Below are positions 24,241-27,801 of a stretch of DNA of 64,000 nucleotides, in pieces (the first letter of the stretch is position 1; each line of letters starts with the position of its first letter). The notes under the pieces were generated by a model that was given only the letters and a program-made list of their open reading frames with translations, made no database searches and was not told the DNA's origin. A program made the position numbers and the translations under genes. This stretch comes from Natrinema versiforme (GTDB lineage: Archaea > Halobacteriota > Halobacteria > Halobacteriales > Natrialbaceae). The stretch lies in assembly GCF_005576615.1 (NCBI RefSeq), contig NZ_CP040330.1, positions 1,488,001-1,552,000 on the forward strand. Direction: 5' to 3'.

Positions 24241-25752
24241 ATGACTGATGGGCGGGGCGAAACTCCCCGGCGAACAGGGATGACCGAAAAGTGTGGCGTC
24301 GTCGGCGTCGCACTCGACGGTCGAGACGCGGCACGACCGTTGTACTACGCGCTCTACGCACTCCAGCACCGCGGGCAGGAGTCCGCGGGGATCGTCACTC
24401 ACGACGGGTTCCAACAGCACAGCCACGTCGAAATGGGGCTCGTGGGGGACGCCTTCGGCGAGGACGACCTCGACGCGCTCAACGGGGCCGCGGGGATCGG
24501 CCACGTCCGGTATCCGACGGCCGGCTCGGTCGACTCCTCCTGTGCACAGCCCTTCTCCGTCTCCTTTAAGAGCGGCTCGCTCGGTCTGAGCCACAACGGC
24601 AACCTCGTCAACGCCGACGAGATCCGCGACGAACTCGCCGCCGCGGGGCATGCCTTCACCAGCGACGGCGACACCGAGGTCATCGCCCACGACCTCGCGC
24701 GCAACCTCCTCGAGGAGGATCTGGTCCGCGCCGTCAAGCGCACGATGGGGCGGATCCACGGCTCGTACTCGCTGACGATCACCCACGACGACACGGTCCT
24801 CGGCGTGCGCGATCCGCAGGGGAACCGCCCCCTCTGTATCGGGGAACTCGAGGACGGCTACATCCTCGCCTCCGAGTCGGCCGCGATCGACACCTTAGAT
24901 GGGGAACTCGTCCGCGACGTTCGGCCGGGGGAACTCGTCGTCCTGCAGGACGACGGGCAGGGCTTTGACTCCTACCAGCTCGTCGAGAACGAGAACACCG
25001 CCCACTGCTTCTTCGAGCACGTTTACTTCGCACGCCCCGACAGCGTGATCGACGACACGCTCGTCTACGAGGCCCGGCGGAACCTCGGTCGCAAGCTCTG
25101 GGAGGAAAGCGGCGTCGAGACCGATGTCGTGATGCCGGTCCCCGACTCGGGACGCGCGTTCGCGTCGGGCTACGCCGACGCGGCGAGCGAGACGACCGCC
25201 GACGGCGAGGCCCGCGACGCGGATGACGACGGCGTCGAGTTCGCCGAGGGGCTGATGAAGAACCGCTACGTCGGCCGTACCTTCATCATGCCTACCCAAG
25301 ACGAGCGCGAACGCGCGGTGCGGCTGAAGCTCAACCCGATCAAGTCCACGATCGAGGGCAAGACTGTCACCGTCATCGACGACTCGATCGTCCGCGGGAC
25401 CACCTCGACCCAGCTCGTCCAACTGCTCAAGGACTGCGGGGCCGAGGCGGTCCACGTCCGCATCGGCGCGCCGGCGATCGTCGCCCCCTGTTACATGGGC
25501 ATCGACATGGCCACCCGCGAGGAGCTGATCGCCGCGGACAAATCGACCGACGAGATCCGCGACGAGATCGCCGCCGACAGTCTCGCCTATCTCTCGACCG
25601 ACGCCGTCGCAGACGTGCTCGAGAAAGAACGGATCGACCTCTGTCTGGGCTGTGTCACGGGCGAGTACCCCTACGACATCGAGGGCGAAGAAACCGACCG
25701 CGACGTGAGCCGTCCCGATGTGGGCGGTCAGCAGTTGCCCGCGGACGACTAA
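24241..25752 (+). CDS. purF: Amidophosphoribosyltransferase
   Basis: 503 residues. It catalyses the first committed step of purine synthesis (PRPP plus glutamine to phosphoribosylamine). The Ntn-hydrolase glutaminase domain begins at CGVVGVALDG (catalytic Cys17 after removal of a 16-residue propeptide), with HRGQESAGI, HVRYPTAG and SHNGNLVNADE. The PRTase domain has the PRPP loop VIDDSIVRGTTS (about residue 380), and the CLGC cysteines near the C-terminus are typical of Fe-S-type PurF. ATG 24280 would leave only a three-residue propeptide; the TATA spacing favours 24241. A dyad shared with the purine permease lies upstream. Confidence 0.95.
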   Translation: MTDGRGETPRRTGMTEKCGVVGVALDGRDAARPLYYALYALQHRGQESAGIVTHDGFQQHSHVEMGLVGDAFGEDDLDALNGAAGIGHVRYPTAGSVDSSCAQPFSVSFKSGSLGLSHNGNLVNADEIRDELAAAGHAFTSDGDTEVIAHDLARNLLEEDLVRAVKRTMGRIHGSYSLTITHDDTVLGVRDPQGNRPLCIGELEDGYILASESAAIDTLDGELVRDVRPGELVVLQDDGQGFDSYQLVENENTAHCFFEHVYFARPDSVIDDTLVYEARRNLGRKLWEESGVETDVVMPVPDSGRAFASGYADAASETTADGEARDADDDGVEFAEGLMKNRYVGRTFIMPTQDERERAVRLKLNPIKSTIEGKTVTVIDDSIVRGTTSTQLVQLLKDCGAEAVHVRIGAPAIVAPCYMGIDMATREELIAADKSTDEIRDEIAADSLAYLSTDAVADVLEKERIDLCLGCVTGEYPYDIEGEETDRDVSRPDVGGQQLPADD

Positions 25753-25755
25753 CAA

Positions 25756-25832
25756 CGAAATTTTGCGCTGCGTTCTGAGCGGACGGATGCGCCGATAGCG
25801 CATCCGTCCGCTCGTCACTCGGCAAAATTTCG
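25756..25832. repeat. Nested perfect palindrome (77 bp) after purF
   Basis: Inner stem: GAGCGGACGGATGCGC (25777-25792) and its exact complement (25798-25813) around a CGATA loop. Outer arms: CGAAATTTTGC (25756-25766) and GCAAAATTTCG (25822-25832), also exact. The 10-nt and 8-nt spacers are unpaired. It begins 4 bp after the purF stop and lies between convergent genes. It could be a bidirectional terminator or a palindromic mobile/REP-like unit. Confidence 0.75.
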
Positions 25833-25947
25833 ATCAAAAGCACTCCTCCTTCCCCTCCAGCCGCGCGTCGCGCGGCTTCCGGGTCAGTCGTCGGCCCGCT
25901 CGCGCCACCGGCGCTCGCGGTCGTAAACGGTGTCCGTCGTCTCCTGC

Positions 25948-27774
25948 TCACCCTTGGAACGCCTCCGCGAACTCCGCCGGGAGCGTGCCGATATCGATCC
26001 CCCACGCGATCGGGAGCCAGCCGACCGCGACCAGCGTGATCAGGACGATCCCGATGACGTTGAGTCCGACGCCGACCTTGGCCATCTGGGGCAGCGTGAT
26101 GTAGCCGCTACCGAAAACGATCGCGTTCGGCGGGGTCGCGACCGGGAGCATGAACGCGAACGAGGCGGCGGTCGCGCCCGCGATCATGAGTCCGAAGGGG
26201 TGGACGCCGATGCCGACCGCGACGCCGGCGAGGATCGGCATGAGCATCGCCGTCGTCGCCGTGTTCGAGGTGACCTCCGTCAGGAAGATCGTCATCAGCA
26301 CCACGGCGAACAGGATCGCGATCATCGACACGCCCTCGAGGAGGCCGAGCCCCTCGCCGATCCACGCCGCGAGGCCGGTCTCGCCGAAGGCGTTCGCGAT
26401 GGAGAGCCCGCCGCCGAACAGGAGGATGACCCCCCACGGGATGTCGACGGCGTTCGTCCAGTCGAGCAGGAAGGTGTGGTCGCCCTCGGCGGTCGTCGTC
26501 GGCAGCGTAAACAGGACCAGCGCGCCGCCGATGGCGACGATCGTATCGGCGTCCTCCGGCGGCGCGACGCCGAAGAGCGGATCGATCAGGCTCGCGCCGA
26601 TCCAGGACGCCGCCATCGCGACGAAGACCACGGCGACCATCCGCTCCTGTCTGCTCATCGATCCGAGCCGCTCGAGTTCGCGGTCAATCGTGTCCGCGCC
26701 GGCTGGGAGTTCCTCGAACTGGGGCGAGACCGCTCGAGTGACGTAGCCGTAGACGGCGACGAGGCCGATGATCGAGATCGGCACGCCGTAGAGCATCCAC
26801 TCGGCGAAGGAGACGGACTGGTCGAACAGCTCCGAGGCCTGCCCCGCGAAGAGTACGTTCGGCGGGGTGCCGATCAACGTCGCGACGCCACCGACGGACG
26901 CGCCGTAGGCGATACAGAGCATCAGCGCGACGCCGAACGAAAAGTTCCCCTCGCTGGTGTCGACCTCGAGACCAGTCTCGTCGACCAGATCGGCGGTCTG
27001 GTAGATGACCGCCAGCGCGATGGGGACCATCATCATCACGGTTGCGCTGTTCGAGACCCACATCGAGAGGAAGGCCGTCGCGAGCATGAACCCGAGGATG
27101 AGCCGCGAAGGCTCGGTGCCGACCGCTTTGATCGTCCGCAGCGCGATTCGCCGGTGGAGTCCCCACCGCTGCATCGCCATCGCGAGGAAGAACCCGCCCA
27201 TGAAGAGGAAGATCAGCGGGTGGCCGTAGGACGGCGTCGTGTCCGCGACGGGGAGCGCCCCGGTCAGCGGGAACAGAACGATCGGGAGCAGCGACGTGGC
27301 GGGGATCGGAATCGCCTCGGACATCCACCAGACGGCGACCCACGCGGTGACGGCGGCGACGGCCTTTCCCGCGGCCGAGAGCCCGTCCGGCGTCGGCGAG
27401 AGGAAGATGAGCGCGAACAGGACGGGTCCGAGGACGAAGCCGATCTTCTGCCGGAGCCCGTACGTGCCGCCGACATCGAACGGCGAGCCACCGTCGTCGC
27501 TGCGGTCGCCACCGCCGGAGCCGTCGTTGCCGTCACCGCCGCGGTGAGTCCCGTCGCCGGTTCGGGCACCCTCGCTCGCCTCCCGGTCGCGACCGCCGTC
27601 GGGGAACACCCGCCGTGCGAGGCGACGTTCCTCGGCCGTCAGGTCGTCCATGTCCGCGATCATGGCCGGCGCGTCGAGCGTGAGATACGCCTTCGTCCGG
27701 GTGTTGACGGTCCACAGATACGCCCACAACCGCCGGGAGACCGATCCCACGGTCGACTCTCGCTCCGTCACCAT
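25948..27774 (-). CDS. SLC13/DASS-family sodium:anion (dicarboxylate/sulfate) symporter
   Basis: 608 residues. The first 110 or so residues are a soluble, Gly/Asp-rich extension (MVTERESTVGSVSRRLWAYLW...). The transporter core follows with about a dozen membrane segments: AWVAVWWMSEAIPIPATSLLPI, LFMGGFFLAMAMQRWGLHRRIA, SNSATVMMMVPIALAVIYQTA and, in the second half, TEVTSNTATTAMLMPILAGVAV. The two SNT motifs (SNSAT and SNTAT) are the Na+/substrate sites of the DASS family, which imports C4-dicarboxylates, citrate or sulfate. ATG 27774 is preferred over GTG 27792, since a TATA box lies 31 bp upstream of it. The substrate is unresolved. Confidence 0.9.
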   Translation of the reverse strand: MVTERESTVGSVSRRLWAYLWTVNTRTKAYLTLDAPAMIADMDDLTAEERRLARRVFPDGGRDREASEGARTGDGTHRGGDGNDGSGGGDRSDDGGSPFDVGGTYGLRQKIGFVLGPVLFALIFLSPTPDGLSAAGKAVAAVTAWVAVWWMSEAIPIPATSLLPIVLFPLTGALPVADTTPSYGHPLIFLFMGGFFLAMAMQRWGLHRRIALRTIKAVGTEPSRLILGFMLATAFLSMWVSNSATVMMMVPIALAVIYQTADLVDETGLEVDTSEGNFSFGVALMLCIAYGASVGGVATLIGTPPNVLFAGQASELFDQSVSFAEWMLYGVPISIIGLVAVYGYVTRAVSPQFEELPAGADTIDRELERLGSMSRQERMVAVVFVAMAASWIGASLIDPLFGVAPPEDADTIVAIGGALVLFTLPTTTAEGDHTFLLDWTNAVDIPWGVILLFGGGLSIANAFGETGLAAWIGEGLGLLEGVSMIAILFAVVLMTIFLTEVTSNTATTAMLMPILAGVAVGIGVHPFGLMIAGATAASFAFMLPVATPPNAIVFGSGYITLPQMAKVGVGLNVIGIVLITLVAVGWLPIAWGIDIGTLPAEFAEAFQG

Positions 27775-27801
27775 TCTCCCCGTTGCTCCCACAGGAAGGC
27801 G

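Follow-up and report, generated by a model that had tools for sequence, protein, structure and literature searches.

Directly downstream of purF, the genome of Natrinema versiforme carries a nested perfect palindrome, and the question raised by this locus is whether the structure serves to end transcripts in both directions or marks the borders of a very small mobile unit, the two explanations first offered for it. The window, to which all positions refer, is the whole 64-kb stretch of DNA that was analysed. A first-pass annotation had placed two concentric perfect repeats at 25756–25832, and these are real and exact: the outer arms, CGAAATTTTGC (25756–25766) and GCAAAATTTCG (25822–25832), are complementary at 11/11 positions, while the inner stem, GAGCGGACGGATGCGC (25777–25792) with its partner at 25798–25813, is paired at 16/16 around a 5-nt loop. 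With loops of up to 60 nt allowed, this stem of 16 bp exceeds every other perfect stem of the window, and among the only 18 stems of at least 10 bp, the outer pair ranks third. The folding z-score is −6.0 for the palindrome region on the + strand and −7.3 for positions 25745–25950 on the − strand, with no shuffle reaching either value. The palindrome lies, as the annotation had proposed, between two convergent genes listed among the open reading frames (ORFs): purF on the + strand, with its TAA stop codon at 25750–25752 and the element starting 3 nt later, and an SLC13-type transporter gene on the − strand (25948–27792), named from its translation only.

The palindrome is one end of a larger repeated unit. 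A search of the genome for the outer arms, suggested in the first-pass annotation, was positive, with six occurrences of the exact arms at 40–70 bp spacing and none for the reversed-pattern control. Further copies with 74–79% identity were recovered by similarity search, and a 23-nt pattern comprising the right arm and the next linker matched 23 times in the same genome, with 0 control matches. A covariance model (R1) trained on 46 copies detects about 30 copies in this genome at E <1e-4, all on one chromosome-sized contig (C2), which confirms that the unit is repeated and rules out the idea that the palindrome alone is a unique terminator. All genome-wide counts are those of such search tools. 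The copies share a layout composed of a left arm, one or more variable hairpins, a right arm, ATCAAAAGCACTCCTCCYTCC, hairpin B, TCRGTCGTCGGCCCGCTCGC and hairpin C. At purF, the modelled core spans 25756–25902 on the − strand, with the RNA 5′ end at 25902 (cmsearch 100.8 bits, E 1.4e-23), and the whole conserved element runs from about 25756 to about 25920, so that the limits 25756–25832 hold for the palindrome and fall short of the unit. A further right-hand block is found in about half of the copies in this genome; it consists of GCCTGCCCTCCCCCGRGTCGC, a hairpin and CCCGGCCA, is present in L014, L017, L019, L022, L025, L027, L028, L030 and L031, and is absent at purF. The − strand of 25655–26005 is open in one frame (GGVLLIEILPS...), and copies of the element may therefore be annotated as small hypothetical proteins.

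The element is widespread in haloarchaea. The linker pattern is present in 104/391 genomes of the class, in copy lists that are biased toward that pattern and to which the purF site was added by a deliberate search, and the covariance model matches in 86/145 haloarchaeal genomes sampled. Hosts include most genera of Natrialbaceae and scattered members of several other families, among them Natrinema, Natronorubrum, Natronococcus, Halobiforma, Halopiger, Halovivax, Halomarina and Haladaptatus, and some genomes hold more than 20 copies. A plasmid collection yielded few matches, including an element at the same purF site in N. thermotolerans, and a phage collection none. A viral origin was discarded, as the seven viral contig matches (L147–L153) are mutually alike, resemble ordinary coding sequence and are without the element's arms. 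In Rfam 15, the element has no match at gathering level, and sub-threshold matches occur at chance level only. The element is apparently undescribed so far, the absence of a description from the limited literature searched being weak evidence of novelty.

Comparison of the copies supports a conserved RNA fold on the − strand. RNAalifold predicts on that strand a helix 1 (GGGCC-GA-C-GA-CY-GA-CC ... GG-GA-RG-GA-G-GA-G-U-GCUU), followed by a helix A, made of the outer arms, and its inner hairpin, with 97.8% of the cells paired vs 83.5% in shuffles. Sixteen of the 27 pairs are changed on both sides, covariation as good was obtained in 0/500 shuffles, and covariation counts far exceed those of shuffles and slid controls. 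The Y-R pair, scored in 172 copies, reads UA in 82, CG in 75, UG in 8 and CA in 5, the pair next inside it is CG in 76, UG in 60 and GC in 16, and the six tandem G.A positions are each kept in 166–172 copies; double changes found in single copies (own_L029 and own_L020) also preserve the outer pairs of helix 1. Read on the − strand, the pairs include in all 78 G.U vs 14 A.C, which identifies the folding strand as the one opposite to the abutting gene. The same test is uninformative for helix A (12 G.T and 8 A.C of 2030 pairs), because its stems are almost perfectly Watson–Crick. In own_L032, L286, L315, L316 and L320, helix 1 takes a variant form whose strands seem to have changed places (GAGGAA ... 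GACGAC), apparently with the tandem G.A pairs kept.

In the purF copy, the RNA of the − strand begins with hairpin C (GCTCGCGCCACCGGCGCTCGCGG, 25898–25920), which adjoins helix 1. The 5′ strand of helix 1, GGGCC-GA-C-GA-CU-GA-CCC, lies at 25881–25897 and its 3′ strand, GGGGAAGGAGGAGUGCUU, at 25838–25855, with three tandem G.A pairs between them, and the helix encloses hairpin B (AGCCGCGC-GTC-GCGCGGCT, 25859–25877), an exchangeable module. Helix 1 ends in GUGCUU-UU, and is followed in order by UUUU, an 8-nt spacer, UUUU and helix A. The first U-tract (25836–25839) comes directly past helix 1, and the second, encoded by AAAA at 25824–25827 in the right arm, starts 12 nt from it. The inner hairpin of helix A (25777–25813) is a fast-changing, exchangeable module. 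For + strand transcripts leaving purF, the left arm in turn carries a T4 at 25761–25764, 8 nt past the stop codon. A T4 at positions 6–9 of the left arm is kept in 187/205 copies. The U4 pairs are nearly invariant and show no compensating changes, whereas the neighbouring pairs covary. The register of the tracts is also fixed: the T-runs start 12 nt apart in 25 of the 26 distinct segments found by the model, many of them from distant families, and are mostly 4/4, 5/5 or 4/5 in length, while the spacer sequence varies. The suggestion that the arms provide termination tracts is largely supported, since these T4 tracts are kept beyond the needs of pairing.

The placement of the element is equally constrained. 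The left arm is recognisable in 205 copies, of which 160 come after a coding-like ORF; the arm starts 0–5 nt past the stop codon in 138 of the 160 and overlaps the stop by one base in 3 more, and the orientation relative to the abutting gene is always the same. These 160 protein-gene copies represent only 47 sites. The abutting genes, named by reading their translations, encode an EngB-like GTPase, PurF, an acyl-CoA dehydrogenase, a geranylgeranyl reductase, an AsnC/Lrp-like protein, TFS, GyrB, a thermosome, a PAN-type ATPase, DNA polymerase II subunits and others. Within Natrialbaceae, different genera carry the element at the same gene ends (gyrB, purF, TFS, thermosome, PAN and others); in other families, the position rule holds and the genes are mostly different. 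Control genes taken from the same loci (n=195) end in TGA in 110 cases vs 5 of the 47 element sites, and have a TTTT at most 14 nt from the stop in only 5. Some copies directly follow SRP RNA (RF01857) or tRNA genes, and a few precede the start of the next gene. Where the left gene is on the + strand and the right neighbour can be scored, the latter is convergent at 39 of 57 sites and tandem at 18. Where two elements adjoin in other genomes, they stand back to back in 9/9 cases, in the order '− then +' and mostly 120–270 nt apart, and double elements between genes are frequent in other families.

Some copies adjoin conserved sequence of another kind. At one site common to several genera (L027, L079, L102, L138, L159 and L198), a conserved GTGAAACTTGCCATGCCCGACGGAAGACGG lies about 60 nt before the left arm; no coding ORF was found for it, L027 has no tRNA or Rfam match, and it is possibly an unannotated RNA gene. 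RNase P RNA was considered as the gene preceding own_L027 and set aside, there being no Rfam match. In L033, L086, L128 and L132, a strongly conserved TTGCATACCCGGTAAAAATCCGGGCG... also occurs about 60 nt before the left arm, with no recognised gene.

With the structure, folding strand, T-tracts and their spacing, placement, orientation and family-wide conservation of sites established by these comparisons, we consider the element to be probably, at odds of slightly better than even (about 0.55), a conserved haloarchaeal gene-boundary terminator of the intrinsic type, which would stop transcription arriving from downstream and may also act in both directions. On the − strand, an RNA hairpin is immediately followed by a U-tract, as in intrinsic terminators, and the convergent gene ends as well as the tRNA and SRP RNA ends are places where a terminator would be expected. 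In Haloferax volcanii, a T-stretch terminates at 95% and a tested hairpin at 59%, and the median 3′ UTR is 97 nt (PMC7237163). The convergent transporter gene would be the likely source of − strand RNA, antisense transcription another, and this RNA would fold helix 1 into a GC-rich hairpin with its three tandem G.A pairs; UUUU-N8-UUUU would then be exposed, and RNA polymerase would halt before purF. Helix A would come next, and the T4 of the left arm may help to end the purF mRNA in the opposite direction. Since the strand that folds is read in the direction of purF, the stronger terminator would face that gene, and a hairpin with U-tracts on the strand running to the protected boundary is the look expected of a terminator for incoming transcription. 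The bidirectional terminator of the first-pass annotation survives as an alternative, yet one in which the folded strand favours a single direction. We infer termination, its direction and its bidirectional part from sequence comparison.

Several observations do not sit easily with termination. At about one-third of the sites, the downstream gene is a tandem + gene, no gene supplies − strand transcripts, and helix 1 is equally conserved; these sites are unexplained by a terminator unless antisense transcription is common there. A T4 is short for an archaeal terminator, a simple terminator scan gives no call at the purF element, and termination does not account for the exchange of hairpin modules among sites. 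With only about 30 genes served, the element is not a general terminator. More tentatively, and with less confidence than in the terminator itself, the copies could form a class-wide family of strand-specific boundary RNAs, in which a tandem-G.A helix and two phased U-tracts, placed at the 3′ ends of a constant group of housekeeping genes and RNA genes, would block incoming antisense transcription while modules are exchanged by ectopic recombination; the element would then be a dedicated insulator-terminator, different from the archaeal terminators known so far.

The history of the sites bears on the main rival explanation. Across 29 Natrinema genomes, the purF site holds the element in most and a degenerate element or none in others; its arms and hairpins differ among species, and where the element is missing, divergence at the far end prevents a clean junction from being drawn. 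Near-identical inner hairpins are found in 10/485 pairs of copies from the same site and in 46 pairs from different sites, an identical 45-nt inner hairpin is common to two unrelated sites of this genome, and the inner loops of L049 and L059 are inverted relative to L014. The shared sites, together with hairpin identity between sites, indicate an old set of sites, fixed within the family, and an exchange of modules between copies.

A mobile unit bounded by the 11-bp arms was rejected, because the conserved unit extends past the arms and genera share its sites: the AT-rich arms, first read as terminal inverted repeats, form a single helix within a longer, asymmetric element that has its remaining helices beyond these arms, they vary with compensating changes, the copies stand 0–5 nt past the stop at gene ends common to several genera and in a single orientation, and no associated transposase was found. 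A dispersed palindromic repeat that was once mobile (REP/BOX/MITE-like or of the unexplained SMR class) and has since become mostly immobile, retained behind stop codons since insertion does no harm at such positions, with the − strand structure reflecting a single-stranded DNA or RNA intermediate read by an unknown enzyme, is the least improbable of the rivals, though still unlikely. The many copies, the identical 45-nt module at different sites, presence or absence at purF among Natrinema species and the difference in sites between families would all be expected of it, and small repeats that lack both a transposase and target duplication are known from Haloquadratum (PMC3119063). However, the concentration of the 160 protein-gene copies at 47 sites, the fixed orientation, the precision relative to the stop codon and the fixed 12-nt register speak against it, as do the scarcity of plasmid matches, the lack of phage matches and the Y1 transposase loci of this genome, whose examined flanks carry no copy of the core motifs.

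Somewhat less plausible is a 3′-UTR RNA element that protects the mRNA or binds a protein (for stability, localisation or processing) with no direct role in termination. The tandem G.A helix, highly conserved in RNA terms and more elaborate than a terminator needs, is consistent with such a role, as is the placement after mRNA, tRNA and SRP RNA ends; but, the folded strand being antisense to the abutting gene, the element would serve the convergent transcript only, which is missing at tandem-gene sites, and the invariant U-tracts better fit termination. An independent family of antisense non-coding RNA genes of about 150–200 nt with their own promoters is the most doubtful, the separate conserved fold, the class-wide distribution and the optional extra 5′ hairpin block being offset by the absence, on visual inspection at purF and gyrB, of any promoter-like signal upstream of the RNA 5′ end, the 25–30 copies with swapped loops and the lack of an Rfam match.

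Accounts of termination in archaea usually centre on a bare T-stretch and helper factors. A strongly structured, homologous element kept at the same gene ends across genera would provide a ready-made system in which to test hairpin-assisted termination, and would also serve the study of how genes are defended against antisense transcription. As the modules move while the positions stay fixed, it also illustrates clearly how non-coding elements evolve in concert.

Several known systems resemble the element in part. BOX-type repeats are modular and made of exchangeable hairpins, as the element is, but BOX copies do not, to our knowledge, keep to the stop codons of one set of genes in different genera. 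The archaeal G-quadruplex repeats (PMC8044849) are a different, methanogen element. REP sequences and BIMEs are likewise repeated intergenic palindromes with proposed roles in termination and mRNA stability, whereas the element is longer, has several helices and is fixed in orientation and site relative to genes. REPs tagged with GTAG or CGTC have been described (PMC3733652); alignment A1 contains no conserved GTAG foot, GTC-GTC occurs only within helix 1, and no core motifs are found in the examined flanks of the Y1 family loci, where a RAYT partner would be sought. The SMR, MITE and PATE repeats of Haloquadratum are also haloarchaeal, transposase-free and palindromic or equipped with inverted repeats, mainly target other mobile elements and are often strain-specific (PMC3119063). 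Unlike them, the element occupies shared sites after conserved housekeeping and RNA genes, and its 11-bp arms are internal rather than terminal, with helix 1 and hairpin C outside. Intrinsic terminators and the T-stretch terminators of H. volcanii (PMC7237163) share with it a GC-rich RNA hairpin directly followed by U-tracts and a location at gene ends, often convergent ones. The element differs from both in its two U-tracts at a fixed 12-nt register, its tandem G.A helix and the second hairpin after the U-tracts, and in being homologous at fixed genes within a family, where it abuts the stop codon of the gene on the opposite strand.
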